Below, in pieces: positions 4,639-18,440 of a stretch of 56,450 bases of DNA. The notes beneath the pieces were generated by a model. It saw only the letters and a program-made list of their open reading frames with translations. It was not told the origin of the DNA and searched no databases. The stretch is from Thermotogaceae bacterium (GTDB lineage: Bacteria; Thermotogota; Thermotogae; Thermotogales; Thermotogaceae): assembly GCA_015489065.1 (NCBI GenBank), contig WGAO01000083.1, forward strand, positions 1 through 56,450. Direction: 5' to 3'. Position 1 is the stretch's first letter, and every line of letters begins with the position of its first letter. The position numbers were made by a program, and so were the translations under genes.

Positions 4639-5600
4639 TGAAGGTTACTTTGTCGATTCTCCTCATAACAACACTTGCTTTCTCTTATTCTCTCTGGCTT
4701 GGAAGGGATCTCCTCTTTGAAGGAGAAAGTATGCGTTTTGAAGACATAGAGAAAACAGTGTATTTTGTAGCGGATGCTCTTGAATATGATGAACCAATAT
4801 TGACGAGAACTTCTACATTCACGCTCCTTCAATTCAACAAAGAAGTAGTGTTGGAATCCGAAGGGAAGATGGCTCTTGGAAATGGAACACCAGACATTTC
4901 CAGTATAAGTGTTGATAAATTTCTGAATTTTTTCGAGATACCTTACATAAGAGACGGATCTTCTCTGATAATACCAGAATGTATACTCAGGGGAGCTAGA
5001 ATTGAGGGGAATAACCTTATCGTAGAGTACTACGGAAATCCAGCTTTTAAATACATCAAAGAGGGAGATTCACTTAAAATCGTATCCATGGGATATGTTA
5101 TGTACGCTGGAAACATGTACATGCCGGAAGATACAATTTTAAGAGTGAAAATCGGTAATTTTTCATTTTCGATAAGTCGCGAATCTGTTGGAAGGGATAT
5201 AATTTCTTTGGAGAAGCCCGGAGAAGAGAGAAAAATACTGATCGTATCTGTTGGAAGCGGTATGATGAAGCCACTACCGCTTGATAGCTTTGGAATAATA
5301 GTTGCAAGAGGAAGCGGAATAGTGATAGTCAGACCGATGTCACCGGACCTTGAGGGATTAGATAAGAAAGCATTCAATACAGCTTTGGACATAGCGAGGA
5401 TTATATCAAGAGATCTGGGATATAGAATAGAGACTTTTCCAATGATCGATATACCACCGGGTACACCAGCTTTAGTAGTTCTTCTTCGAGATAAGGAGGA
5501 TTTTATAAAGATCCTCAACATAGTCAGGAGGATGACTGGAATTGAGAAGATTGTCAATAGTGCTCCTGATTTTGATAAGCTTCCAGATCTTGGCAGTTGA
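4638..5600 (+). CDS. Exported protein, possibly a degenerate N-acetylmuramoyl-L-alanine amidase-like protein
   Basis: The 320-residue protein starts with a clear signal peptide (MKVTLSILLITTLAFSYSLW). The middle part, SVDKFLNFFEIPYIRDGSSL and following beta-rich segments, resembles the copper-amine-oxidase-like/AMIN modules that precede amidase domains. The last 120 residues contain KILIVSVGSG, then an ALDIARIISRDLGYRIET helix and PPGTPALVVLL, an arrangement recalling Amidase_3. The zinc-binding His/Glu residues are not seen, so catalysis is doubtful. ATG overlaps the kinase stop (TGATG), and the next gene, a GerMN protein, also acts outside the membrane. The assignment is an inference; exported protein of unknown function is the safe call. 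Confidence 0.6.
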   Translation: MKVTLSILLITTLAFSYSLWLGRDLLFEGESMRFEDIEKTVYFVADALEYDEPILTRTSTFTLLQFNKEVVLESEGKMALGNGTPDISSISVDKFLNFFEIPYIRDGSSLIIPECILRGARIEGNNLIVEYYGNPAFKYIKEGDSLKIVSMGYVMYAGNMYMPEDTILRVKIGNFSFSISRESVGRDIISLEKPGEERKILIVSVGSGMMKPLPLDSFGIIVARGSGIVIVRPMSPDLEGLDKKAFNTALDIARIISRDLGYRIETFPMIDIPPGTPALVVLLRDKEDFIKILNIVRRMTGIEKIVNSAPDFDKLPDLGS

Positions 5601-5994
5601 GATTCAGGCTGTCTTTGTAGATTACAACAAAGACATAGGTGTAGTAAAACGCTTTGAAGTAGATGAAACTATACCGGTAATTTTCTCGCTTTTTCAACAG
5701 CTTTATTCTCCTCCACCAGGTCTTAGGAGCTTCGTTCCTCCAGAATGTCTAAGAGCGGCATTTGTTCTAGATGATGCGGTGGTTTTGGATTTTTACTCTG
5801 ACAAATTGGAGGGAATGACATTTTACGCCGAAAGAATGGCGATTTATCAGATACTTCTTTCGGTGTTTAGGACTTTTGATGTGAGTAGGGTTTACATAAT
5901 AAAGGATGGAAAAAAAGCAAAGGTGTTTTCGAAATACGCCGACATATCCCTTTCATTTGGAAGAGAGGAGTGGATTGAGTGGCCCGTGCGTTAA
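5542..5994 (+). CDS. Exported GerMN-domain protein
   Basis: This 150-residue protein begins with a signal peptide (MRRLSIVLLILISFQILAVE) read from a TTG start that lies inside the previous gene, 59 bases before its stop. GGAGGA sits about 9 bases upstream of the TTG. The rest matches the GerMN pattern: AVFVDYNKDIGVVKRFE, a conserved SPPPGLRSFVPPECLR turn, VVLDFYSDKLEG, then AIYQILLSVFRTFDVSRVYI ending in a K-D-G-K strand. GerMN domains occur in spore germination proteins and, in non-sporeformers, in exported cell-wall proteins often linked to amidases. The pairing with a possible amidase-like neighbour suggests an envelope role. Confidence 0.75.
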   Translation: MRRLSIVLLILISFQILAVEIQAVFVDYNKDIGVVKRFEVDETIPVIFSLFQQLYSPPPGLRSFVPPECLRAAFVLDDAVVLDFYSDKLEGMTFYAERMAIYQILLSVFRTFDVSRVYIIKDGKKAKVFSKYADISLSFGREEWIEWPVR

Positions 5995-6782
5995 TAGAGG
6001 ATGGAGACAGAATATTTCTGATAGGAGATGATGGCGAGGAATTTGTCGCTGAGGTAAAGGCGGGAAAAAAGTTCGGAACACATCTGGGAGCTTTTCTGTT
6101 TGACGAAATAATAGGGAAACCGTACGGAACATCTGTGAAGACGAGTAAAGGAAAAACTCTATATGTGATAGAACCTGGCTACATAGATAATGTTTTCCAT
6201 ATGAATAGAAGAACACAGGTCGTATATCCGAAAGATTCAAGTTATATACTTATGAAATTGGATGTCTTTGAAGGAAAGAGAGTAATAGATGTCGGTGCGG
6301 GTAGTGGAACGATGAGCTATCTTTTTGCAAAGGCAGTTGGAAGAAGTGGAAGGGTATACACATACGAGAGAAGGGAAGATTTCTACAATCTCGCAAAAGA
6401 GAATCTGACTAGGTGGGGTGTAATCGACAGGGTTGATATGAAGCTCAGAGATATCTCTGATGGTGTAGACGAGATGAATGTTGATGCTTTCTTCTTAGAT
6501 GTTCCATATCCGTGGAATTACATATCTGTGGTGTGGAAATCCCTGAAAGGAGGAGGGCGGTTTTGCACAGTAGTCCCAACGACAAATCAAGTTCAAAATG
6601 TCTTAGAGGAAATGGAAAAGTTTCCATTTGTTATGGTAGAAGTGTGGGAGAGTATGTTCCGACAGTATAAACCCGTTCCAGAGCGTTTGAGACCTTTCGA
6701 TAGAATGGTCGCTCATACGGCATACATGATATTTGCTATAAAAGTTTTGAGGAGGGATGAGAATGAAAATGGAAGAGATTAA
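5979..6782 (+). CDS. trmI: tRNA (adenine-N1-)-methyltransferase TrmI (m1A58)
   Basis: The 267-residue product has the N-terminal small beta domain of TrmI and a Rossmann methyltransferase core with the SAM motif VIDVGAGSGTMSYLF, the acidic YTYERREDFYNLAKEN strand-helix, and the LDVPYPWNYI catalytic loop (DxPxPW). It methylates A58 in the T-loop of tRNAs, a modification important for tRNA stability at high temperature. Translation starts at GTG 5979, overlapping the GerMN gene by 16 bases. The following peptidase start lies inside its 3' end, so the two are translationally linked. Confidence 0.92.
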   Translation: MARALIEDGDRIFLIGDDGEEFVAEVKAGKKFGTHLGAFLFDEIIGKPYGTSVKTSKGKTLYVIEPGYIDNVFHMNRRTQVVYPKDSSYILMKLDVFEGKRVIDVGAGSGTMSYLFAKAVGRSGRVYTYERREDFYNLAKENLTRWGVIDRVDMKLRDISDGVDEMNVDAFFLDVPYPWNYISVVWKSLKGGGRFCTVVPTTNQVQNVLEEMEKFPFVMVEVWESMFRQYKPVPERLRPFDRMVAHTAYMIFAIKVLRRDENENGRD

Positions 6783-7911
6783 AAAGCTTCTTCCAAGGGT
6801 TATAGAGCACAGAAGAGAGCTTCACAAAATTCCAGAGCTTGGTCTTGATCTTCCAAAGACAATTGAATATGTCGAGAGACATTTGAAAGATCTTGGATTA
6901 TCTCCAAAAAGAGTTGGAAAAGGCATCACTTGTGATATAGGTAATCCCCCTTTTGTTGCTATAAGAGCTGATATGGATGCCCTGCCGATGGAAGAGAAAA
7001 ACGATCTTCCTTACAAAAGTACTCACCCTGGGAAAATGCATGCTTGTGGGCATGATGCTCATACAGCGGTTCTTCTTGGCCTTGCTGAGTATTTCTCTAA
7101 GAATTCTCCACAGGTAGGAGTTAGGCTGATATTTCAAGCTGGAGAAGAGGGATATTTCGGTGCGGTTGAGATGATAAAAGCGGGAGCTCTTGAAAATGTT
7201 GAACTTATCTTGGGCCAACATGTTGGAAATCAAGCAGAAGCACCAGAGGGTGGAATAATAACAAAAAAAGGAGTTTTCATGGCGTCGGCGGACGCTTTCG
7301 ATGTCAAGTTTAAGGGGAAGGGAGGTCATGGATCAGCTCCTCATGAGGCTAGAGATCCAATAGCTCCTGCTGCTCAATTTGTCACGTCGGTGTATTCATT
7401 TAGAAGCAGAGAAATAAATCAGACTCATCCATTCGTTACCACAATAACTAAATTGGTCTCTGGAACTACTTTCAATGTTATACCAGACATAGCTGAGATA
7501 GCGGGTACGGTAAGAACGATAAGTGAAGAAGATAGGAAGAAAGCCGCAAGGAGATTGGAAGAAATGGCAAAGGGAGTAGCTGAAGCTAACGATATAGAGT
7601 TTGAATTCGTATATCACTGGATGTACAGGACTCTTGTAAACACTGATTGGGTTGTTGATATGCTGGTGGAGGTTGTCTCAAAGATGGGGATCCCGATTGT
7701 TCAGCTTGATACTCCCATAATGGGAGGAGAGGACTTTTCATATTACCTTGAAAAAGTCCCCGGAGTTTTCTTTTTTACGAATACAGCGAATCTTGAAAAA
7801 GGAATAGTTCAGCCAAACCACAGCCCTTACTTTAACATAGATGAAGAGAAACTCTGGGTTCCGATGGCTGTGTTTGTAAAGATGGTGGAGGAGTACGCTT
7901 CTAAAAAATGA
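6763..7911 (+). CDS. M20-family amidohydrolase/carboxypeptidase
   Basis: The product, about 382 residues, is a zinc-dependent M20D peptidase of the hippurate hydrolase/N-acyl-amino-acid amidohydrolase group. Visible motifs are IRADMDALPMEE, HACGHDAHTAVLLG (metal ligands), QAGEEG with the general base Glu, the lid domain beginning GGHGSAPHEARDP, and IMGGEDFSYYLEKVPG. It should release amino acids from N-acylated or short peptide substrates in the cytosol; the true substrate is unknown. GGAGGG at 6751-6756 is six bases before the ATG chosen here. ATG 6757 is directly adjacent to it and ATG 6769 is another option. The stop overlaps the ispF start (ATGA). Confidence 0.88.
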   Translation: MKMEEIKKLLPRVIEHRRELHKIPELGLDLPKTIEYVERHLKDLGLSPKRVGKGITCDIGNPPFVAIRADMDALPMEEKNDLPYKSTHPGKMHACGHDAHTAVLLGLAEYFSKNSPQVGVRLIFQAGEEGYFGAVEMIKAGALENVELILGQHVGNQAEAPEGGIITKKGVFMASADAFDVKFKGKGGHGSAPHEARDPIAPAAQFVTSVYSFRSREINQTHPFVTTITKLVSGTTFNVIPDIAEIAGTVRTISEEDRKKAARRLEEMAKGVAEANDIEFEFVYHWMYRTLVNTDWVVDMLVEVVSKMGIPIVQLDTPIMGGEDFSYYLEKVPGVFFFTNTANLEKGIVQPNHSPYFNIDEEKLWVPMAVFVKMVEEYASKK

Positions 7912-8387
7912 GAGTTGGAATAGGATGGGATATTCACAAAATAGCTGATGGTTGTTGTCTAATACTTGGTGGTGTTATTGTATCTAACGAAAAGACAACG
8001 ATAGCGCATTCTGATGGAGATGCGCTTTGTCATGCAATAATCGATTCTCTTCTCGGAGCGGCAAATTTAGGTGATATAGGTTCTTTCTATCCGGAAATTG
8101 AGAAAAACAAAGATATGAGCAGTATCGATGCTCTAAATGAGATCTCTAGAGTAGTTAAAAAATTAGGATACTATATAGTAAATGTGGATGCTACAGTGAT
8201 TCTATCTGGAGTCAGACTATCACCATTCAGAGATCAGATAACAGGATCTCTGGAAGCAGTTCTTGGATGCCCGGTATCTGTTAAATTCAAAAGTGGAAAC
8301 AGCGTAGGGGAAGTTGGAAATGGAAAAGCTATTGAAGTTCACGCAGTTGCGTTGTTAAGCGAGCGTGTCGATGAGCGCTCCGATTAA
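7908..8387 (+). CDS. ispF: 2-C-methyl-D-erythritol 2,4-cyclodiphosphate synthase IspF
   Basis: IspF converts CDP-methylerythritol 2-phosphate to the cyclodiphosphate in the MEP isoprenoid pathway. The 159-residue protein shows RVGIGWDIHKI with the metal-binding DxH, the long HSDGDALCHAIIDSLLGAANLGDIGSF block, and NVDATVILSGVRLSP. The C-terminal CMP-binding segment, normally containing a TTTE-like motif, here reads SGNSVGEVGNGKAIEVHAVALL. This is a lineage variant or a diverged site. The ATG overlaps the peptidase stop. The 3' end overlaps the convergent unknown gene by 33 bases. Confidence 0.93.
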   Translation: MRVGIGWDIHKIADGCCLILGGVIVSNEKTTIAHSDGDALCHAIIDSLLGAANLGDIGSFYPEIEKNKDMSSIDALNEISRVVKKLGYYIVNVDATVILSGVRLSPFRDQITGSLEAVLGCPVSVKFKSGNSVGEVGNGKAIEVHAVALLSERVDERSD

Positions 8388-8867
8388 GAACTGCGGCAGC
8401 TCTAGTGAGGCTTTGAATGAATTCAAAGCGAGCTCCAGCAATGTTATCTCACGCTGGAGCCTTTCTCTTTCCACAGGATCTGTGGTATTTTCCATCTTCA
8501 GCTTGAGCTCGTCTATTCTGTTTTTTATCTGAGATTTTGCCTCCTCTTGACGATCAACATTATTATGATCCTCTTCATCTACAGTATCGCGAGATTTTCT
8601 TCCAGGTATGTACATCCAAACCTTTGTTTTTCCAGCTACGGCAGCCAGAAATCCACCTCGTCTCCTCAAGTCGAGGAATATTCCACCGCTGATTATGAAT
8701 CCACCTTTTTTTATAGCTTCTTTTTTGAAGGCCAGATAATTGGATATCTCTTGGTTTAGAACGCGTATAATACTCATACTTGCCGGTGCCGAATGTGCAA
8801 GTCCCGGCTCACCAGGATCTAACTTATACCCTAGTATTGGATTGAAAGAGTTCGGGTTCACTCTCAT
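8355..8867 (-). CDS. Conserved-looking protein of unknown function
   Basis: The predicted 170-residue protein starts MRVNPNSFNPILGYKLDPG, has a compact middle (KKGGFIISGGIFLDLRRRGG then FLAAVAGKTKVWMYIPGRK), and ends in a charged helix likely to form a coiled coil (EEAKSQIKNRIDELKLKM, VERERLQREITLLELAL). There is no signal peptide or membrane segment. AGGTGAT lies six bases before the chosen ATG, better than the start 45 bases upstream. The gene is convergent with ispF and overlaps its 3' end by 33 bases. I do not recognise the family. A structural or flagellum-associated role is possible but unsupported. Confidence 0.65.
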   Translation of the reverse strand: MRVNPNSFNPILGYKLDPGEPGLAHSAPASMSIIRVLNQEISNYLAFKKEAIKKGGFIISGGIFLDLRRRGGFLAAVAGKTKVWMYIPGRKSRDTVDEEDHNNVDRQEEAKSQIKNRIDELKLKMENTTDPVERERLQREITLLELALNSFKASLELPQFLIGALIDTLA

Positions 8868-8930
8868 ATTATCACCTGTATAGATTTTAGGATATTTACT
8901 TCCGATTTTCAAAAAGAAAGGGGAGTCTGG

Positions 8931-9701
8931 ATGCTCAAAGATGTAAAACTCTTTGTTTTAGATATGGACGGAACGGTTCATATAAGTGGAGAACTCTTTC
9001 CGTGGACAATTCCTTTTCTGGAAAGAATAAGAGAACTCGGAAAGAGATATGTCTTTCTAACAAACAACTCATCAAAAGGTCCGAAGGATTATGAAAATGA
9101 ACTGGAGAAAATGGGAATACCAGATCCTGTGGTCTACACATCAGGTGAAGCCACGGCTCTTTACATAAAAGAGAAATTCGGGAGTGTTCGAATCTTTGTC
9201 ATGGGAACTAAGAATCTCATACGAGTCTTTGAGAGCAATGGTTTTTATATAGATGAAGAAAATCCGGAGGTTTTGGTTCTCGGATACGACACGGAAGTTA
9301 CATACGAAAAGATCAGGAAATTTGCAATACTTCTGAGAAAAAATCTCCCGTATATATCAACTCACCCGGATATAAATTGTCCGTCTAAAGATGGTTTGAT
9401 ACCAGATGCTGGAAGCTTCATGGCGCTTTTCAAGGTTTCTACGGGCAGGGAACCGGAAAAGATCATAGGAAAGCCGAATCCACAGATTCTTTACACCCTT
9501 TCAGAGAGGTTTAGAGTTCCTTTAAGTCAGATTGCTGTTGTGGGCGATCGACTTTACACCGATATAAAGCTCGCAAAGAATTCTGGAGCTGTCAGTGTTC
9601 TTGTCTTGAGTGGAGAAACATCGAGGGAGGATCTGGAAAAATCGGATGTATCACCAGATATAGTTGTGGAGAACTTATGGGAGCTCATAGAGATGATTTG
9701 A
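8931..9701 (+). CDS. HAD-superfamily phosphatase, NagD/p-nitrophenylphosphatase type
   Basis: The 256-residue protein has the four HAD motifs: LFVLDMDGTVHISG with the nucleophile Asp, FLTNNSS for motif II, Lys in IIGKPNPQI for motif III, and VVGDRLYTDIKLAKNSG for motif IV. The C2-type cap between residues about 80 and 180 places it in the NagD/AraL/PNPPase subgroup of small phosphate-ester hydrolases. The natural substrate cannot be predicted. GGGGAG precedes the ATG. It is monocistronic: the unknown gene upstream is divergent, and the fluoride riboswitch unit with its own promoter follows. Confidence 0.9.
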   Translation: MLKDVKLFVLDMDGTVHISGELFPWTIPFLERIRELGKRYVFLTNNSSKGPKDYENELEKMGIPDPVVYTSGEATALYIKEKFGSVRIFVMGTKNLIRVFESNGFYIDEENPEVLVLGYDTEVTYEKIRKFAILLRKNLPYISTHPDINCPSKDGLIPDAGSFMALFKVSTGREPEKIIGKPNPQILYTLSERFRVPLSQIAVVGDRLYTDIKLAKNSGAVSVLVLSGETSREDLEKSDVSPDIVVENLWELIEMI

Positions 9702-9712
9702 AAAATGAATTA

Positions 9713-9721
9713 TGATAAAAT
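9713..9721 (+). promoter_or_regulatory. Extended -10 promoter of the fluoride riboswitch unit
   Basis: TGATAAAAT fits an extended -10 element (TGnTAtaAT) about 16 bases before the aptamer. The start would fall at about 9728-9732, just upstream of the riboswitch. No convincing -35 hexamer is present, as expected for extended -10 promoters. Confidence 0.55.
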
Positions 9722-9736
9722 CTAAAACAAGTTTAT

Positions 9737-9786
9737 AGGGCGATGAGGCTCGCCCAAAATGCCCAGGAGGGCTGATGGCCTCTACC
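9737..9786 (+). promoter_or_regulatory. Fluoride riboswitch (crcB RNA motif) aptamer
   Basis: The sequence matches the fluoride aptamer almost base for base with the well-studied Thermotoga petrophila example as I remember it. Stem one is GGGCG/CGCCC (9738-9742 with 9751-9755) enclosing ATGAGGCT. Stem two is GCCC-AGGA-GGGC (9761-9772). The invariant GCTGATGGCCTCTACC follows. GAGGC in loop one (9745-9749) pairs with GCCTC (9778-9782) to make the pseudoknot that encapsulates fluoride with Mg2+. The 3' pseudoknot strand is also the left arm of the terminator hairpin. Ligand binding should therefore prevent termination and turn the downstream MutS-like genes on. The assignment is by conserved sequence and pairing; the switch logic is inferred from the overlap. 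Confidence 0.95.
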
Positions 9787-9811
9787 TAAGTGGTAGGGGC
9801 TTTTGTTTTTT
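9778..9811 (+). terminator. Riboswitch-controlled intrinsic terminator
   Basis: GCCTCTACC (9778-9786), loop TAAGT, GGTAGGGGC (9792-9800) form a nine-base-pair hairpin with one G-U pair, followed by TTTTGTTTTTT. Its left arm contains the pseudoknot bases of the fluoride aptamer, so aptamer and terminator are mutually exclusive. The U-tract ends about 15 bases before the first MutS-like start codon. Confidence 0.9.
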
Positions 9812-9826
9812 CAGGGAGGGATATTT

Positions 9827-11344
9827 ATGGATTGCGCGAGCATACTATGTAAAGAAGAATGCAATTTGAAAAAGGTGAGTTTAGAAGTTCTCAAAGATCT
9901 CAAACTTGATATTGTTATAAGAAGAATCGTCGCTTCCAAAGAGAGATATAACTTAGATCCCTTCTTTTTATCACCTCTAAAAAGTGAAGATGAGATAAGG
10001 TACAGGCAAGAGATATCAAAGGATGTGGAAAAAGAGGATATTTTTATCCACCTAAAAGAGTTTTCCAGAAGTATGGATAGAGTGAGTAGATTGAAGAAAA
10101 TGGCAGGGAAGTTGGAATACGAGTACAACAAAAAAGGTTGGATTTTGGAAACTGCGATAGCTTATTCAAAGGCCGTTCAAAAACTTCTCAGAGATTTAGA
10201 AAATTCGGATATCAGATCTGAAGGTTTGAAGAGGTTCAGGGGGTTTCTCAAGGAGTATGTGAGTTCTGAAGATTTCCAGTCTCTTGTTGAAGATTCGGAG
10301 AAGGTTAAAAGCGCTCTCTCTAGTATCAAGTATTCTCTGATCGTTGAGCCGGGAAAATTCAGCGTTAAGAAATATGAAGGTGAAGAGAATTTCGCACCAA
10401 GCGTTGAAGAAATCTTCTCAAAATTCAGGGACTCGGAATGTAATCAGTATGAATTTGAGATATTTGAAACACATGGTATGAATCACATCGAAGCTGCGAT
10501 ATTAGATTTTGTGGTTAAGTTGTATCCAAAGCCGTTTGAAATGCTCGATGAGTTTTGCAGAAAGCACGAGAATTTCTTGAACAGATGTATTTTAAAATTT
10601 GAAAGAGAAATTCAGTTCTACCTTTCGTATTTAGAATTTGTAAAACCTCTCAAAAATGGAGGTCTTCACTTTTGCTATCCAAGAGTAAGTGAAAACGATG
10701 AAAATTTCTATGCTGTCGATATGTTTGATATGGCATTGGCAACTACGATTGATCCAAAAAAGATTGTTAAGAATAACTTTCAATTGCAAACTCCTGAAAG
10801 GATAATAGTTGTAACAGGACCTAATCAGGGAGGAAAAACAACCTTCGCCAGAACATTCGGCCAGATTCATTATCTTGCAAGCCTGGGCCTACCTATACCT
10901 GCATCAAGTGCGAAACTTCTTATTCCTGACGGGATATTCACACATTTTGAGAGACAGGAAAAACTCCAAAGTTTAAAAAGTAAGCTGGAAGATGATTTGA
11001 TAAGAGCTAAAGAAATTGTGGATAAAGTTACAAACAGAAGTGTTGTAATAATGAACGAAGTTTTTTCATCTGCAGCCCTTTTTGACATGATAAGTCTTAG
11101 CAAGAAGATATTAGACAAGCTTTTGGAAAAAAACTGCATAGGGGTTTGGGTGACATTTGCCGATGAGCTCTCTAAATATAGCGAAAAGATTGTTAGCATG
11201 GTTGCACAGGTAGATCCAAAAGATCCCTCTGTGAGAACTTTCAAAATCGTTAGGAAGCCATCAGATGGATTGGCTTACGCTTTTTCTATAGCTGAGAAAT
11301 ACGGCCTAACTTATGAAAAAATTAAGGAGCGGGTGATACGATGA
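9827..11344 (+). CDS. MutS-related ATPase, first of a tandem pair
   Basis: This 505-residue protein resembles the lever/core and ATPase part of MutS proteins. Walker A is VVTGPNQGGKTTFARTF near residues 328-344, and Walker B is NRSVVIMNEVFSS near 402-414. Helical core segments precede them, including LSPLKSEDEIRYRQEIS, which is typical of MutS domain III. The N-terminal mismatch-recognition domain of true MutS (with Phe-x-Glu) and an Smr nuclease domain are absent. A mismatch-repair role is therefore not implied, and DNA-structure binding or another NTPase role is possible. GGGAGGG lies seven bases before the ATG; an upstream in-frame TTG falls inside the terminator. The second homologue overlaps its stop (ATGA). 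Transcription is gated by the fluoride riboswitch. Confidence 0.88.
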   Translation: MDCASILCKEECNLKKVSLEVLKDLKLDIVIRRIVASKERYNLDPFFLSPLKSEDEIRYRQEISKDVEKEDIFIHLKEFSRSMDRVSRLKKMAGKLEYEYNKKGWILETAIAYSKAVQKLLRDLENSDIRSEGLKRFRGFLKEYVSSEDFQSLVEDSEKVKSALSSIKYSLIVEPGKFSVKKYEGEENFAPSVEEIFSKFRDSECNQYEFEIFETHGMNHIEAAILDFVVKLYPKPFEMLDEFCRKHENFLNRCILKFEREIQFYLSYLEFVKPLKNGGLHFCYPRVSENDENFYAVDMFDMALATTIDPKKIVKNNFQLQTPERIIVVTGPNQGGKTTFARTFGQIHYLASLGLPIPASSAKLLIPDGIFTHFERQEKLQSLKSKLEDDLIRAKEIVDKVTNRSVVIMNEVFSSAALFDMISLSKKILDKLLEKNCIGVWVTFADELSKYSEKIVSMVAQVDPKDPSVRTFKIVRKPSDGLAYAFSIAEKYGLTYEKIKERVIR

Positions 11345-12861
11345 GAGTCCTCTTGATGTACAAAGACAGAGATTTCAAAGAGAGTGAACTCCCGAAAAAC
11401 TCTGAGGATCTCATAAGCGATCTTGGACTTGATGTGATTTTCGATCACATGTCAAAAGGTGATCAGTACATATTCAACATATCAAAAGAGGTTCTTTTGA
11501 ATCCTTTGGTAGACAAGGAAACGATAATCTATCGTCAGGAAATAATGAAAGACGCGCTTGAAAATCCAGAGATCATCAGAAGTCTCTACAGTATGACTAT
11601 AGAAGTCGAGGAGAGTAAAAGAGAAAAATGGTGGGGTATATTTGGCTGGAAGACCCCTTCAAATATCCTGAGTGGAGCAAGAAGAACTTTGGAATCGCTT
11701 TTATATTTTCTGAAAAAGCTCAGAAAAGTTGCAGATGAAAATTCGGATAAATTTCGATCCGAGGGATTTAGAAATTTCTTTGAAATGATAAAGACAGAGC
11801 TGAGCGATGAATATCTTCAGAGAGCAGAAGAGATGGTGGAGAAGCTTAAATTTCAAAGAGGAATTCTCCTGAGAGTTTCTATAGGTGAAGGAAATGAAGG
11901 AAAAGGCTATACATTGATAAAACCTCTGGAAAAGAAATGGTTTCAGAGGATATTAAGAAGACAGAAAGTGTACTCATACAAGTTGAATCCAAGAGACGAA
12001 GCTGGAGCCCAGGCTCTTGATGAAATAAGAAATAAAGGGATAAGCGAAGTAACGAGCGTTGTTGCGTGTGCTGCAGATCACATAGAGGATTTCTTTAAAA
12101 AGCTCAGAAGAGAAATTGCGTTTTATGTGGGAGCGATCAATCTCCAGGAAAGCATGAAAGCTCTTGAGATACCGATCACATTTCCAGTGGTGACCGATGA
12201 AAAGCAGATTTCGTTTAGGAATCTCGTCAGTATAAGCCTGGCTTTAACAAATGGTAAAAAAAAGGTCATTGGCAACGATCTAAAAGAAATTGGAAAAAAT
12301 CTTTTCATAGTGACTGGAGCTAACAGAGGAGGGAAAACAACATTTTTGAGGAGCTTTGGTCAAGCCGTTTTGATGATGCAGTCTGGAATGTTTGTATCAG
12401 CAAAAGATTTCAGTTCTAACCTTTACAGTGGAGTGTTTACTCATTTCAGAAGGGAAGAAGATGAGGACATGAAAATGGGAAAGTTTGAAGAGGAGCTCTC
12501 AAGGATGAGCATAATAGTTGATCAAATAAAGCCGGGGGCTCTTTTGCTTTTGAATGAATTTCTGTCATCAACGAATGAAAGGGAAGGTTCAGAAATAGCA
12601 CACCAGATAGTAAGAGCACTTGTTGAGAGTGGAATTAGTGTGATGTATGTAACTCATATGTACACGCTGGCAAGGAAATTTTTCGGATGTAAAAAAGCTA
12701 TCTTTTTAAGAGCTGAGAGAACTCCAGATGGAAGGAGAACTTTCAAGATAAAAGAAGGAGAGCCTTTACCAACGAGCTTTGGAGGGGATATTTACAAAAA
12801 GCTCTTTGGAGAGGAGATCGATGGATTAGAGAAGGAAAGAGAAGGATGTGCTCCTCTCTGA
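11341..12861 (+). CDS. MutS-related ATPase, second of a tandem pair
   Basis: This 506-residue protein is a paralogue of the preceding one, with the same layout: NPLVDKETIIYRQEIMKDAL in the core, Walker A VTGANRGGKTTFLRSF near residue 325, and Walker B GALLLLNEFLSSTNEREG near 399, followed by the VMYVTHMYTLARKF switch strand. It lacks the mismatch-binding domain. The divergence between the two copies, together with strict co-translation (ATGA overlap), suggests a heterodimer like eukaryotic MSH pairs. That is an inference. The gene ends about 45 bases before the -10 element of the transketolase gene. No strong terminator is visible between them. Confidence 0.88.
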   Translation: MRVLLMYKDRDFKESELPKNSEDLISDLGLDVIFDHMSKGDQYIFNISKEVLLNPLVDKETIIYRQEIMKDALENPEIIRSLYSMTIEVEESKREKWWGIFGWKTPSNILSGARRTLESLLYFLKKLRKVADENSDKFRSEGFRNFFEMIKTELSDEYLQRAEEMVEKLKFQRGILLRVSIGEGNEGKGYTLIKPLEKKWFQRILRRQKVYSYKLNPRDEAGAQALDEIRNKGISEVTSVVACAADHIEDFFKKLRREIAFYVGAINLQESMKALEIPITFPVVTDEKQISFRNLVSISLALTNGKKKVIGNDLKEIGKNLFIVTGANRGGKTTFLRSFGQAVLMMQSGMFVSAKDFSSNLYSGVFTHFRREEDEDMKMGKFEEELSRMSIIVDQIKPGALLLLNEFLSSTNEREGSEIAHQIVRALVESGISVMYVTHMYTLARKFFGCKKAIFLRAERTPDGRRTFKIKEGEPLPTSFGGDIYKKLFGEEIDGLEKEREGCAPL

Positions 12862-12949: not shown

Positions 12950-14830
12950 ATGAGATTCGAATACGACGAGCTTCCAAAGGAGTTGGAAAAAGAGCTCAAG
13001 GAAAAGGCAAAGTTTGCCAGAGCAGATATACTTAAAATGACCAACATAGCTAAATCTGGTCATCCTGGAGGTTCAATGTCATCGATTGAGATATTTTTAA
13101 CTGTCTACACATTCGCAAATTTTGACCCGAAGAATCCAGACGATCCAAATAGGGACAAATTCGTTATAAGCCATGGTCATACATCGCCGGGAGTTTACTC
13201 AGCTCTTATACAAGTTGGCGCGATAGACAGAGAAGAAGTTCTCACATCCTTCAGACATGTATCATCCAGATTCGAAGGTCATGTTACAAGAGGCCTTCCG
13301 GGTATAGATTGGACAACTGGAAATTTGGGACAGGGTCTATCAGCCGGCCTTGGAATGGCCCTTGCTACGAGATACAACGGTAGAGATTATCATGTCTTCG
13401 TTATGATGTCAGATGCGGAGCAGAACAAGGGACAAGTTGCAGAGGCAAGAAGGTTGGCAGTTAAGTACAACACGGAAAATCTTACAGTGGTTGTGGATTA
13501 CAACGATGCTCAGATAAGTGGAAAAGCATCAAACATAATGAAAGTGAACATAAAGGAGGAGTATGAGGCTGCAGGATGGAAGGTTTACGAAACTGATGGA
13601 CATGATTTCAGCTTGCTCTACTCTGCAATAAAGAAAGCGGTTGAGGATGGAAGTCCAAGTGTTGTTCTTGCGCGTACAAAGATAGGAAAAGGGATATCGT
13701 TTATGGAAGATCAGGTCAAATATCATGGGAAACCACTTTCTGATGAGGAATTAGAGAAAGCGCTGAAAGAACTCGGAGTTGAGAACGATACGGAAAAATT
13801 CAAAGAAAAGAGAAAAAAACTACCGATCAAAAAACCTTCCAGGGTTAAGAAAGAGTACGAGGTAAATATAGATGCAGGAGAACCTTTTGTCTACGAAAAA
13901 GATATGGATGGTAGGGGAGCAATTGGTAAAGCCATACTCGATCTAGTTAAGAGGAATCCAAACTCCCCAATAGCTGCTGTAGACTGTGATCTTCTCGAAT
14001 CTGTCAGATTCAACTGGCTCGCCGAGGAATTTCTAGAAAGAATAATAGAAGCTGGTGTTGCCGAGCAGAATGCTGCAACAGTTGCAGGGGCTATGTCAGC
14101 TGAAGGGGTAATTACTTTCTTTGGAGATTTTGGAGTTTTCGCAGTGGATGAGACATTCAACAACCAAAGGCTTAACGCGATGAATCATACGAATCTCAAA
14201 GTCATAGCTACCCATTGCGGAACGAATGTTGGTGAAGACGGAAAGACTCATCATGCGCTCTTTTATCTAACTGGAGTGGCAAACTGGTTTGGTTTCGAGG
14301 TAATAGTACCATCGGACGCTAATCAAGCTGATAGAGCTGTTAGATATGCCGCTTCAAGATATGGAAACTTCCTTATATCGGTTGGAAGATCAAAGCTGCC
14401 AATAATAAAGAAAGAAGACGGAAGAGTGTTTTATGATGAAAACTATACGATGGATTGCAAGAGAGCAGATATCATAAGGAAGCCAAAATCTGACAGAGTT
14501 GTTGTAAGCATGGGATCAGTTGTCCCATTTGCGGTAGAAGCGGCTGATGAGGTTGGTGCAGGCACAGTAGCTATTCCTTGCCCTTTGAGCTTTGAAATTG
14601 AGAGCTTGAAAGATTTGCTGAATGGAAAAAAGATATTGGTTGTTGAAGATCACAACTGGTTTGGACTTGGAGCTCTTCTTGCCTACAAAATGGTAAGCGC
14701 TGGAATAGTTCCGAAAAGGTTTGAGCATGTAGCGATAAGGGAGTTCACAGAATCCGGAAATTGGAAAGACATTTATAAACTTCATGGTCTGAGTAAAGGA
14801 AAGATCAAGGAAAAGCTAGAGAGTCTTTGA
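12950..14830 (+). CDS. tkt: Transketolase
   Basis: This full-length 626-residue transketolase transfers two-carbon units in the non-oxidative pentose phosphate pathway, using thiamine diphosphate. The N-terminal domain shows IAKSGHPGGSMSSIEIFL, the substrate His region ISHGHTSPGVYS, the GNLGQGLSAGLGMAL block and the ThDP/Mg motif region MSDAEQNKGQVAEARRLA. The pyrimidine domain has EAGVAEQNAATVAGAMSAEG with the catalytic Glu, and HCGTNVGEDGKTHHAL. The C-terminal domain follows from about residue 500. Both halves are in one chain, unlike split two-gene versions. AAAGGAGGG precedes the ATG. It is monocistronic, with a -10 element upstream and a strong terminator downstream. Confidence 0.95.
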   Translation: MRFEYDELPKELEKELKEKAKFARADILKMTNIAKSGHPGGSMSSIEIFLTVYTFANFDPKNPDDPNRDKFVISHGHTSPGVYSALIQVGAIDREEVLTSFRHVSSRFEGHVTRGLPGIDWTTGNLGQGLSAGLGMALATRYNGRDYHVFVMMSDAEQNKGQVAEARRLAVKYNTENLTVVVDYNDAQISGKASNIMKVNIKEEYEAAGWKVYETDGHDFSLLYSAIKKAVEDGSPSVVLARTKIGKGISFMEDQVKYHGKPLSDEELEKALKELGVENDTEKFKEKRKKLPIKKPSRVKKEYEVNIDAGEPFVYEKDMDGRGAIGKAILDLVKRNPNSPIAAVDCDLLESVRFNWLAEEFLERIIEAGVAEQNAATVAGAMSAEGVITFFGDFGVFAVDETFNNQRLNAMNHTNLKVIATHCGTNVGEDGKTHHALFYLTGVANWFGFEVIVPSDANQADRAVRYAASRYGNFLISVGRSKLPIIKKEDGRVFYDENYTMDCKRADIIRKPKSDRVVVSMGSVVPFAVEAADEVGAGTVAIPCPLSFEIESLKDLLNGKKILVVEDHNWFGLGALLAYKMVSAGIVPKRFEHVAIREFTESGNWKDIYKLHGLSKGKIKEKLESL

Positions 14831-14946: not shown

Positions 14947-15444
14947 ATGAATCTCAGTAAGGGAGAAAGGAAATATTTGATAGGAATTCTTCTGACGGAA
15001 AATGAGTATGGATGGACAAGACTCAAATGGGTGGCGGACTTCTTTGGGGTGAAGATGTCCACTGTTAAGGAATTTCTGAACTCACTTGAGGATAAAAAAC
15101 TGATAACTCATCAAAGAAGAGGAGCGATATTTCTAACTGATATTGGAAGAGAAATTGCGTCTAGAGAAAAGCAAAGATTGGATGTTCTTATCAAATTTAT
15201 GACAGGTTGCCTCGTGCTCGATGATGAAACAGCAAATAAGAATGCCATGAAAATTCTATTTGAATTAGATGATAAAGTTTCGAATCGTCTTTACAAGTTC
15301 ATAGAGTTTATGACTCTATGTCCTACAAAGCCTGTTTTCATAGATAAATTTGAAAGCTATATAAAGGATGGAAAATACGAGATGTGTAGTTACTGCCCCG
15401 TTCTCTTCGACAAGGAGGGATACGATGAAATTAAGCGAGGCTAA
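14947..15444 (+). CDS. DtxR/MntR-like transcriptional regulator, diverged metal site
   Basis: The 165-residue protein has an N-terminal winged helix (GERKYLIGILLTENEYGWTRLKWVADFFGVKMSTVKEFLNSLEDKKLITHQRRGAIFLTDIGREIA) and a dimerisation helix region, laid out as in DtxR/MntR metal-dependent repressors. The usual EHxxS metal ligands are not present: the equivalent stretch reads AMKILFELDDKVSNRL. Instead the C-terminus carries Cys in TLCPTKP and a CSYCP motif, which could bind zinc or an iron-sulfur cluster. TAGGAGGTAATT precedes the ATG. It overlaps the MoxR gene by 20 bases and heads a long operon, so autoregulation is plausible. Confidence 0.65.
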   Translation: MNLSKGERKYLIGILLTENEYGWTRLKWVADFFGVKMSTVKEFLNSLEDKKLITHQRRGAIFLTDIGREIASREKQRLDVLIKFMTGCLVLDDETANKNAMKILFELDDKVSNRLYKFIEFMTLCPTKPVFIDKFESYIKDGKYEMCSYCPVLFDKEGYDEIKRG

Positions 15445-16489
15445 AAAATTGGCGAAGAAGATAATGTCAGTTGGAGAGATCCCACTTCTTGTGGGTCACT
15501 TTGGAGTTGGGAAAACTGATCTCGTGAGGGAGATAGCTGAAGAATCAGGCAGAGAACTGGTAATTCTCATATTGTCTCAAATGGAACCGGGAGATCTGAT
15601 AGGCCTTCCGGCACGTGGGGAAAACAAGACAGTTTTTCTAAAACCTGACTGGTGGCCAGAAAGCGACAACACGATACTGCTTTTGGATGAGATAAACAGG
15701 GCACATAGATCTATAAGGAATGCGATAATGCAGCTCCTTGTAGACAAGAGAATACACAATCATGTTCTTCCCGATGGTGTGTGGATCGCAGCTGCTATGA
15801 ACCCACCAGACGATGAGTACGATCAGGCTGAACTTATAACAGATCCGGCGTTCATTTCCAGATTTTTCGTTTTGGAGATAAATCCAGATCCAGAGGAATG
15901 GGTGAAATGGTCAGAAAGAAATGGTGTACATGAATCCGTGAGAAAATTCATAAATAGCTACCCTGAGTTTCTTTCGTCAAGCAGGTCAGTATCTATAAAA
16001 GCTGATTTGAAACCCAGCCCGAGGAGTTGGTATAAACTTGGGAAAGTCCTATCAGTTCTTTCAGAAGACGAGATCAATGAATATGGTTACACGCTTGCCG
16101 CGGGAATAATAGGTCCTGAGGCTGCAAAAGTGTTTTACGATTCATATCTCAGAAATTCGAATATTCCATCAGCTGAGAAGATCCTCCTTGAAAACTTGGA
16201 TCTGGATTTAAAGAGCGTGGATGAATACAATTCATTAGTTGTGAGAATTATAGACTTTCTTTCCTCGGTGGATGATGAAAAGATAGTGAAGTACATGGAT
16301 GAAGTTTCGAAAATATCAGAGAACATCTTTGGAATGTCAAAGAAACTTCCGAAGGAATCTTTTTACGCTCTCATGAGATACATAGTGGATGAATCAGAGA
16401 AATCTGGAATAAGAGGTAAATTCTTTGATTCACTACTCTCAGAGCTTATGAAACACGACGAGCTTGTTGAAATGGTGAGGAGTATATGA
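15425..16489 (+). CDS. MoxR-type AAA+ ATPase
   Basis: This 354-residue protein has Walker A LVGHFGVGKTDLVREIA near residue 22, the GDLIGLP segment, Walker B NTILLLDEINRAHRSIRNAIMQLL, sensor 1 AAAMNPPD and FISRFFVLEI. This is the MoxR/CoxD branch of AAA+ proteins, which act as chaperones for partners with VWA domains. Its immediate partner is the DUF2201/VWA gene downstream, overlapping by four bases (ATGA). The start at 15425 is preceded by AAGGAGGGATACG; the upstream in-frame ATG lies deep in the regulator gene and lacks a ribosome binding site. Confidence 0.88.
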   Translation: MKLSEAKKLAKKIMSVGEIPLLVGHFGVGKTDLVREIAEESGRELVILILSQMEPGDLIGLPARGENKTVFLKPDWWPESDNTILLLDEINRAHRSIRNAIMQLLVDKRIHNHVLPDGVWIAAAMNPPDDEYDQAELITDPAFISRFFVLEINPDPEEWVKWSERNGVHESVRKFINSYPEFLSSSRSVSIKADLKPSPRSWYKLGKVLSVLSEDEINEYGYTLAAGIIGPEAAKVFYDSYLRNSNIPSAEKILLENLDLDLKSVDEYNSLVVRIIDFLSSVDDEKIVKYMDEVSKISENIFGMSKKLPKESFYALMRYIVDESEKSGIRGKFFDSLLSELMKHDELVEMVRSI

Positions 16490-17646
16490 AGATAGACGAG
16501 GCAATAGTAGCTCTTGGAAAGGAATCGCCATTCTATCTTTATATGCTCATAGGAATGAAAAGAATAGAAACGGATTCCGTCAGAACGGTTTCGCTGGGAT
16601 TTTCAAAAAACGGAGATATTTTGCTTTTTTACAATCCAAAGATCGAAGAGAAAGATCCAAGATTTGTAAAAGCTCTCCTGAAACATGAAGTCATGCATTT
16701 GATAAATCAGCATTTCTTGATAAAACCGAAAGACAGTAGAGATAAAAAAATCTGGGATTTAGCGATGGATGCTGCTATAAATCAGTACATAGAGGAATTG
16801 GATGCTTTCGGTGTTCCCCTTAATCAGTTGATAGAAGAGGGGCATGGAGTGGATAACGAATATATATTCGCAGTTCCACCACCTCAACATCCGTGGGAAA
16901 ACGCGGAGTTTTACCACGATTGGATTCTGAAGAAGTTCGAAGAATTAGGGAGATTCGATATAGAAACCCTTCCACAGTCACCAGATGATCATATGAGTAG
17001 TGATGTTAACTATGACATGGTACTGGAGATAACGAAGAGTAAAACCGGGAAGGCTTTCAATATGTACGGCGGAAATCTTCCCTCAGGTGTTCAAAGAATG
17101 GTGGAGAAGTTCTTATCGAAACCTGTTTTGAACTGGAGAATCTTGGTGAGGAGATTTATAGGAGTCTCTGTTAAGGGTGAAAGATATACAACTCCTCTAA
17201 AACCAAATAGAAGATATGAAGATCAACCCGGTTGGAGGCATGAGTACAGATCGAAATTGGCCGTTGTTGTTGACACATCTGGAAGCATAATAGAGAGCGA
17301 GATAAACGATTTTCTCTCTGAAATAGAATCCCTTGTTAAAAGCACAGAAGGTGAGGTTTATCTCGTACAAGTTGACAACAACGTAACGATTGTTGCAAAG
17401 TACAGAAGAGGTGACTGGAGAGATTTGGAGATTGTAGGTGGTGGGGAAACAGATCTACAACCTGCTGTTAGTTATGTTGAGAGTAATTTAAAAACTGAAG
17501 GCATAATAGTGTTTACAGATGGACACGCTGATGTTCCTTTGAGCAGAAGGAGGATTCTTTTTGTCTTATCGAGATATCATAACCAGGATTTTAAGAACGA
17601 GGTTATGAGAATGTATGGACCGTCTTCGGTGGTGGTGATAGGTTGA
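16486..17646 (+). CDS. DUF2201-type putative metallopeptidase with VWA-like domain
   Basis: The 386-residue protein joins two parts. An N-terminal metallopeptidase-like region has KHEVMHLINQHFL (an HExxH zinc motif), near residue 67. A C-terminal VWA-like domain starts KLAVVVDTSGSI (MIDAS DxSGS) and includes GGGETDLQPAVSYV and VFTDGHADVPL. This is the COG3864/DUF2201 architecture, regularly found next to MoxR ATPases. The pair is assumed to form a remodelling machine, possibly inserting metal cofactors or processing a protein. No target is evident. The next gene starts at a TTG overlapping its TGA stop. Confidence 0.85.
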   Translation: MKIDEAIVALGKESPFYLYMLIGMKRIETDSVRTVSLGFSKNGDILLFYNPKIEEKDPRFVKALLKHEVMHLINQHFLIKPKDSRDKKIWDLAMDAAINQYIEELDAFGVPLNQLIEEGHGVDNEYIFAVPPPQHPWENAEFYHDWILKKFEELGRFDIETLPQSPDDHMSSDVNYDMVLEITKSKTGKAFNMYGGNLPSGVQRMVEKFLSKPVLNWRILVRRFIGVSVKGERYTTPLKPNRRYEDQPGWRHEYRSKLAVVVDTSGSIIESEINDFLSEIESLVKSTEGEVYLVQVDNNVTIVAKYRRGDWRDLEIVGGGETDLQPAVSYVESNLKTEGIIVFTDGHADVPLSRRRILFVLSRYHNQDFKNEVMRMYGPSSVVVIG

Positions 17647-18440
17647 GAGTGGGTCCAAAGTCTGTATGTGAAAAATTGGAGAAACTTTCAAAAAGATTCG
17701 AATTTCTAAAAGATCCCTCTCTTGAATTCCTTATGAATCACAGAGAAAGAGTAGATGATCTCCACAAGGTTGCTCTAGTGCATTCTATAAAATCGGATAT
17801 GCAAATAATCGTTTCTGTATTCAGCGAAGGTCAAATCGCAGCTGGGATAACTCTATCTGATCCATTTTCAAGATCACCTTCTCCTTACAGAATGAATGTG
17901 GATCCACAAATCGTTTCGAAGATAGTCGGTGAAATTTTTGGTTGGGGAGTGTCTGAGATCAAGAGCGGCATATTTGAATTCCCGCCTAGGGTGAGATTCC
18001 TGGCGGTGATCGGACCTGATATCTGGATGAAAAAAGAGTTGTTTCAGGAGAAGATAAAGGGAGACGAGAAGTTATCGTTTGCCGAGAAAATAGATGAAAG
18101 AGTCTTTAATAGAATTCTGAGTCTTAAGAAGAGTTCCCAGTTAGATGGAATGAATGTTTTTGTAGACGATGAAGGGATACACATAGCCTTCTCTGTACCA
18201 GATGATGTGGATGATAAGAGAATACCCCTTTTATCAGAGATGGCGAAATTGATTAAGGAGAAGCTTGGAGTAAAGACATCGTCTTTTTCAAAGTTCGCAA
18301 AGGGAAAAAGAGTCTTTGCCACCGCTACTTTTCCACTTGATAACTTATGGGAAGAAGATCCTTTAAAGGATGCCAGGGATATGCTGAGAAAAGTTCTCAA
18401 AGGATATAGAGCATTCCTCAGGGAGGCTGGTCTAGATTGA
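17643..18440 (+). CDS. Unknown protein co-translated with the MoxR/VWA pair
   Basis: I do not recognise this 265-residue protein. It has no signal peptide or membrane helices. Two segments look like related alpha/beta folds: IIVSVFSEGQIAAGITLSDPF near residue 55 and GMNVFVDDEGIHIAFSVPDD near 170. A helical C-terminus contains LRKVLKGYRAFLREAG. The TTG start overlaps the VWA stop (TTGA) and its own stop overlaps the next TTG the same way. The strict coupling suggests it is a third component of the MoxR/VWA system. Confidence 0.75.
   Translation: MRVGPKSVCEKLEKLSKRFEFLKDPSLEFLMNHRERVDDLHKVALVHSIKSDMQIIVSVFSEGQIAAGITLSDPFSRSPSPYRMNVDPQIVSKIVGEIFGWGVSEIKSGIFEFPPRVRFLAVIGPDIWMKKELFQEKIKGDEKLSFAEKIDERVFNRILSLKKSSQLDGMNVFVDDEGIHIAFSVPDDVDDKRIPLLSEMAKLIKEKLGVKTSSFSKFAKGKRVFATATFPLDNLWEEDPLKDARDMLRKVLKGYRAFLREAGLD

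Follow-up and report, generated by a model that had tools for sequence, protein, structure and literature searches.

A fluoride riboswitch ahead of a MutS4-type ATPase pair: a probable fluoride-tolerance operon found across bacterial phyla

Comparative analysis shows that a predicted fluoride riboswitch and an overlapping terminator precede an operon of two MutS-like ATPase genes, P1 and P2, in a Thermotogaceae bacterium, and that the same pair is linked to fluoride genes across phyla. The operon lies in a stretch of 56,450 nucleotides (contig WGAO01000083.1; hereafter the window). Judged by its sequence, the pair is of the widespread MutS4A/MutS4B type. Its role is very probably fluoride tolerance, for which the riboswitch by itself is not proof. 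The pair is unlikely to act in mismatch repair, as it lacks domain I and the genome has homologues of both MutS1 and MutS2. As the same pair resides in fluoride-controlled clusters of many unrelated bacteria, fluoride tolerance is most likely the role of genes that usually bear the label 'mismatch repair', and many annotations reading 'DNA mismatch repair protein MutS' on plasmids and islands probably denote fluoride genes.

The association of mutS with the crcB motif is known since 2010, when mutS was named among the crcB-motif-associated genes (PMC2864571), and the structure and in vitro antitermination of the Thermotoga petrophila switch are also known. The link has been left unexplained in the literature found, and a separate literature credits MutS4 with recombination; our literature search found no paper joining MutS4 and fluoride. 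New here, on the comparisons described below, is that the association appears to be broad and specific, and to belong to MutS4-type pairs. MutS4 as a widely transferred member of the fluoride regulon would unite the two literatures, and a loose end dating from 2010 becomes directly testable.

Riboswitch and terminator in the window and in Thermotogales

The features of the window are the following:

9688-9716, + strand: promoter-like TAGAGA-17-TATGAT ahead of the leader (consensus scan only)
9730-9791, + strand: fluoride riboswitch aptamer (RF01734; Rfam 44.1 bits, E 5.5e-9; pseudoknot covariation)
9777-9811, + strand: intrinsic terminator and expression platform, overlapping the aptamer 3' strand (10-bp stem)
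9827-11344, + strand: P1, MutS4A-type ATPase, 505 aa (Walker A GPNQGGKT, Walker B N-E, VTF replacing the H-loop His)
11341-12861, + strand: P2, MutS4B-type ATPase, 506 aa (Walker A GANRGGKT, Walker B N-E, VTH kept)

The RF01734 match covers the full Rfam covariance model, the gathering score of which is 34 bits. A second match is absent elsewhere in the 1.84-Mb genome, and 9730-9791 is its sole fluoride riboswitch. The terminator stem (9777-9801) reads GGCCTCTACC-loop-GGTAGGGGCT, is followed by the T-tract TTTGTTTTTT, and is recovered, at 10 bp, by folding of 9725-9830. Since the 5' arm of the terminator is the 3' pseudoknot strand of the aptamer, the layout is that of a classic ON switch. Among 18 Thermotogales homologues the pseudoknot, formed by the P1 loop of the aptamer with the 3' strand, is paired in 100% of the cells, and covaries (GAGGC/GCCUC versus GGAGU/ACUCC); two-sided changes over the whole aptamer structure were observed in 38 cells, versus 14.3 in shuffles. 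The TATGAT near 9713 is a weak -10-like motif, in a region where promoter matches are no commoner than in shuffles; position 9713 is merely the start of the leader region. An earlier note on this DNA, made from the letters alone, had described a crcB-motif aptamer, a textbook ON-switch arrangement, and two co-translated MutS-like ATPases devoid of mismatch-recognition domains. The covariance-model match, the reuse of the aptamer 3' strand by the terminator, the ATGA overlap of P1 stop and P2 start (11341-11344) and the Pfam profile of the pair bear out this description.

Fluoride riboswitches were found in 17 of 45 Thermotogales genomes, contiguous pairs in 9 (G000, G002, G022, G032, G034, G035, G038, G043, G044). 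The riboswitch is directly upstream of 8 of these 9 pairs; the exception, in G032, is a diverged pair (P2 38% identity) in which the riboswitch is absent. In G021 contig ends interrupt the pair, and in G033 just a broken remnant is left. CrcB is encoded in the genome of the window (G000), but not downstream of the riboswitch. Searches failed to detect CrcB in G002, G034, G035 and G044, and CLC in G002, G035 and G044.

The riboswitch of G038 (1794817-1794880) has the exact coordinates of the switch of T. petrophila CP000702.1. According to PMC13273304, the change in antitermination brought about by NaF on this switch in vitro is 43% (sequencing) or 24% (gel). The aptamer is the crystallised fluoride aptamer (PDB 4ENC), as given in PMC11586693. 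The gene behind the switch is not named in the accessible portions of the literature on structure and antitermination. Identical coordinates, and the pair lying downstream, indicate that the MutS pair is the natural target which the crystallised aptamer now gains. The T. petrophila leader (L032) is orthologous to that of the window, featuring the same aptamer, an overlapping terminator and a MutS pair behind; the two switches differ in sequence only, and the P1 and P2 of L032 are each ~53% identical to their counterparts in the window. By analogy, the window switch is expected to bind fluoride and antiterminate, as its ortholog does in vitro.

Domains, phylogeny and structure of P1 and P2

P1 starts at ATG 9827, which follows GGGAGGG and is kept in position in a congener; a TTG within the terminator tail was rejected in favour of this start. 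Pfam detects MutS_V alone in each protein (1e-20 in P1, 6e-17 in P2), and finds neither mismatch-recognition nor connector nor Smr domains; both proteins terminate shortly after MutS_V. Known subfamilies do not accommodate the pair. Domain I of MutS1 is absent (Pfam), with 86.7 bits versus a cut-off of 480; the C-terminal Smr part of MutS2 finds no Pfam match, and the score is under the cut-off of 400; the KamC profile (NF052383) gives 45 and 88 bits (the latter for P2) versus a cut-off of 300. Full-length MutS1 and MutS2 homologues are separately encoded in the genome. An anti-phage defence function was rejected, as PADLOC models gave zero matches. In the family tree P1 and P2 each form one clade (99/98 and 99/95); the two clades are sisters, and are jointly split from MutS1, MutS2, KamC and another 500-aa group (100/98); KamC groups with MutS2, and not with the pair.

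KamC is the best curated profile of P2 (4.7e-25) and, like P1 and P2, measures ~500 aa, carries the MutS ATPase and lacks the mismatch domain, as would suit a dedicated lysine 5,6-aminomutase reactivase (KamBC proper). Unlike the pair, KamC sits on a separate branch and has a mostly D-E Walker B, the pair scores far under its cut-off, and the client is absent: PF09043, the lysine 5,6-aminomutase, is missing from all pair-bearing f1 genomes and G002, and from the genome of the window (93.6% complete), for which the exclusion is limited by the assembly. Score, tree and missing aminomutase led us to reject KamBC proper, the probability of which is close to nil.

The Walker B Asp is changed to Asn in 60/60 P1 and 59/60 P2 proteins, so that N-E is found in 119 of 120 sequences; D-E is the rule in MutS1, MutS2 and most KamC. 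The H-loop position is VTF in 60/60 P1 and VTH in 59/60 P2. A fluoride-induced heterodimer gains in likelihood from the invariant tandem order, the sister-clade origin and the way in which motif loss is complementary between the two (P1 has VTF, P2 VTH), and a shared N-E Walker B with the H-loop His lost in P1 alone fits an asymmetric one. P1 and P2 probably associate as a heterodimer with two unlike ATP sites. Structural matches include the engineered E. coli MutS D693N (3k0s), and the Walker B Asn of P1 and P2 is, by our reading, the residue engineered there. The prevalence of N-E and the existence of the D693N structure would be in keeping with a fluoride-insensitive replacement or sink, that is, an ATPase binding Mg weakly and resisting Mg-fluoride-ADP trapping, which either carries out a housekeeping task in the presence of fluoride or serves as a buffer of Mg-fluoride. 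Such a replacement would call for a fluoride-sensitive counterpart, of which there is no sign, and buffering at the scale of proteins is improbable at millimolar fluoride; this alternative is very unlikely. The D693N mutant is reportedly altered in Mg handling, which makes a link between the Asn Walker B and Mg-fluoride worth testing.

The AlphaFold models of P1 and P2 are confident (pLDDT 88.5 and 89.7), and resemble, in Foldseek, the MutS2 core and DNA-bound MutS or MutSbeta. P1 finds its top structural match in the B. subtilis MutS2 bound to collided disomes, the Thermus MutS2 core being a close second, and P2 is colinear in alignment with the N-terminal half of MutS2. Like P1 and P2, MutS2 has an N-terminal core plus MutS_V; it differs from them by its Smr part, and is made of one kind of subunit, while the pair has two unlike ones. 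These matches recall ribosome or translation rescue, in which an Smr-less MutS2-like clamp would free ribosomes stalled by GTPases trapped by fluoride or metal-fluoride, or by energy depletion. Fold similarity of this degree (TM about 0.5-0.6) is common throughout the family, the C-terminal Smr part is missing from the pair and a separate MutS2 is at hand in the genome, all of which make rescue a poor candidate, with a low probability.

Distant loci, fluoride islands and proposed role

A P2 profile search of genome contigs retrieved at least 574 relatives, and 80 loci were kept. These come from Chloroflexota, Spirochaetota, Bacillota, Syntrophobacteraceae with related taxa, Acidobacteria, Bacteroidota and further groups, an archaeal bin included. 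All 77 loci having sequence for P1 show it ahead of P2 in the same orientation, in most cases with an overlap; in the remaining 3, P1 is not visible beside P2. A riboswitch model (R1) built from the 18 Thermotogales sequences places a riboswitch immediately ahead of P1 in 50 of the 72 distant loci with sequence there. Thirty-five matches score 30 bits or more, and 5 weaker ones either pass the Rfam gathering score or are identical in sequence to a confirmed one; as the other 10 are below 30 bits in R1 and lack confirmation by Rfam, the strict count is 40/72. A terminator overlaps the aptamer in 36 of the 50 upstream riboswitches, versus 5.7 expected from shuffles. R1 gives too low a count, as seen in L202, whose score is 16.8 under R1 and 56.6 under Rfam; all loci seemingly free of a riboswitch, except L193, were therefore rescanned with Rfam. 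Among the other 22 loci, at least 11 (L138, L156, L159, L174, L177, L178, L181, L183, L189, L191, L192) have a fluoride riboswitch of Rfam gathering level elsewhere in the flanks; in several of these it heads a same-strand run or operon ending in the pair. No riboswitch is nearby in about 11 of the 72. As a control, 291 kb of MutS1, MutS2, KamC, CrcB and CLC loci contained no riboswitch, the included window being the only match.

A survey of riboswitch-linked pairs and a MutS family tree had been suggested in the earlier note, the interpretation of which holds in part: layout, gene pair and precedent of mutS among crcB-associated genes stand, while the link to nucleotide damage finds no support in any result obtained here. 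That note lacks the MutS4A/MutS4B identity, the occurrence of the pair across phyla in fluoride-resistance islands that also hold enolase and CrcB, and the T. petrophila ortholog of the switch.

Genes found within 8 kb of the pair in the 80-locus set encode enolase (19 loci), MFS transporters (19), a dynamin-like GTPase (16), DUF190 (12), DUF6062 (11), CrcB (10), UspA (8) and a Na/H antiporter (7). A wastewater plasmid of E. coli carries the order riboswitch-antiporter-uspA-MutS4A-MutS4B; adjoining are a second riboswitch, followed by a DHHA2 (pyrophosphatase-like) gene-uspA-eno-gpmA-crcB-P-type ATPase, and a third, followed by CLC-DUF190. The middle block, from DHHA2 to the P-type ATPase, resembles the FRM operon of E. 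cloacae, the deletion of which abolishes high fluoride resistance (PMC5533749).

MutS4A and MutS4B are the names used for the mycobacterial pair in PMC5742357, with reference to Lin 2007 and Ogata 2011. As in the window, two MutS-like ORFs are adjacent, the stop of A overlapping the start of B; in contrast to the present reading, they are regarded there as mismatch repair or recombination genes, and fluoride is not mentioned. The mycobacterial island contains enolase and NADH-dehydrogenase/hydrogenase genes (PMC5742357). M. branderi, used by inference in place of the M. yongonense MutS4 sequences, has on a plasmid an island of the same type, in which a riboswitch lies 33 nt ahead of a pair scoring 653 and 657 bits with the P1 and P2 profiles.

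With the M. yongonense MutS4 operon placed in M. smegmatis, an incoming rpoB fragment showed increased insertion and length (PMC5742357). P1 and P2 have a MutS fold comprising a lever, a small clamp region and the ATPase, and their Foldseek matches include DNA-bound MutS and MutSbeta. The pair could accordingly be a DNA clamp for recombination, anti-recombination or repair, needed as fluoride disturbs replication or metal-dependent repair enzymes. Against this stand the lack of mismatch-recognition and Smr domains, the MutS1 and MutS2 already encoded in the genome, and the tight linkage of the pair to fluoride genes; the mycobacterial study, moreover, has one readout, and does not consider fluoride. 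A DNA clamp is improbable, though the least so of the alternatives.

The preferred reading is fluoride tolerance by a protein-remodelling clamp. In the absence of fluoride, transcription would halt at the terminator. Upon a rise of cytoplasmic fluoride, Mg-fluoride would close the aptamer pseudoknot and block the terminator, and read-through would yield a single mRNA from which P1 and P2 are co-translated. The two would most likely assemble into a MutS-fold ATPase clamp, an asymmetric heterodimer in which each partner is obligate. The clamp would serve fluoride tolerance and not mismatch repair, and would spend ATP to remodel or reactivate fluoride-locked Mg-dependent enzymes, with enolase or pyrophosphatase as first candidates. 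The chain as a whole, client step included, is tentative, at a compromise level a little below an even chance. Reactivation of Mg-dependent enzymes trapped by fluoride is, taken alone, the favoured mechanism, though a modestly probable one that stays well below an even chance. It has been likened to the action of the MutS-like KamC, named reactivase of lysine 5,6-aminomutase, a likeness which is non-specific, given the P2 score (88 bits versus 300) and the placement of KamC with MutS2. Marginally less probable still is the formulation that MutS4A/B may be a fluoride-induced ATPase machine freeing proteins (e.g. enolase, pyrophosphatase) from fluoride-metal traps and not engaged in repair, the first dedicated MutS-family clamp of this kind, with the Walker B Asp to Asn change tuned to abundant Mg-fluoride.

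The adjacency of enolase to the pair may reflect mere co-membership in a fluoride island. Several loci encode a helical protein of ~155 aa close to the pair, and in L154 this protein forms a fusion with enolase. A Rosetta-stone link between pair and enolase was rejected, because the L154 contig also carries a broken P1, and the fusion could stem from a sequencing error. In the window, the transketolase gene at 12950 was excluded from the fluoride operon: the 88-bp gap contains a TATAAT motif, and the synteny is limited to the genus.

The riboswitch operon of the sister family

A different operon is under control of the fluoride riboswitch in the sister family, as in locus L020, and equivalents are carried by loci L019, L022-L024, L029, L033 and L035.

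Members of the L020-type operon
5188-9404 (oriented): DUF6062 (CPICxL) protein; MoxR-type AAA ATPase; DUF58 protein; ~455-aa protein, the last without Pfam match

The DUF6062/MoxR/DUF58 operon and the MutS pair, made of the tandem MutS4A- and MutS4B-type ATPases P1 and P2, coexist in the Thermotogales genome G002, and a separate riboswitch lies ahead of each.

Irregular and plasmid-borne pairs

At the G002 locus (L026, oriented 5540-7196) the P1 frame is open from 5973 only, and the N-terminal part seems to be either in another frame or lost. P2 is reduced to a broken remnant, adjoining an rRNA operon, in genome G033 (L109, 5335-5619).

P2 relatives are present in 47 plasmid records. The mobilizable E. 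coli plasmid p027_SK3a (L199) hosts a fluoride island with three riboswitches, where the MutS4 genes bear the label "DNA mismatch repair protein MutS".

Neighbouring genes

Among distant pair-bearing loci, fluoride riboswitches are followed directly 3' by a dynamin-like GTPase in L146 (11342), L158 (487), L159 (11382), L181 (5335) and L189 (11346); in L186 (10277-12178) DUF6062 and dynamin domains are fused. A helical-looking protein of ~155 aa, for which no Pfam match was found, resides near the pair in L128 (11437-11913), L146 (2853-3317) and L166 (9577-10173), and is joined to the enolase N-terminus in L154 (4416-6179), a fusion that may be a sequencing artefact, as P1 is also broken on that contig.

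Downstream in the window (14947-18440), genes for a DtxR-like regulator, a MoxR-like AAA ATPase, a VWA/DUF2201 protein and DUF4895 form a cluster, the synteny of which is kept within the genus.
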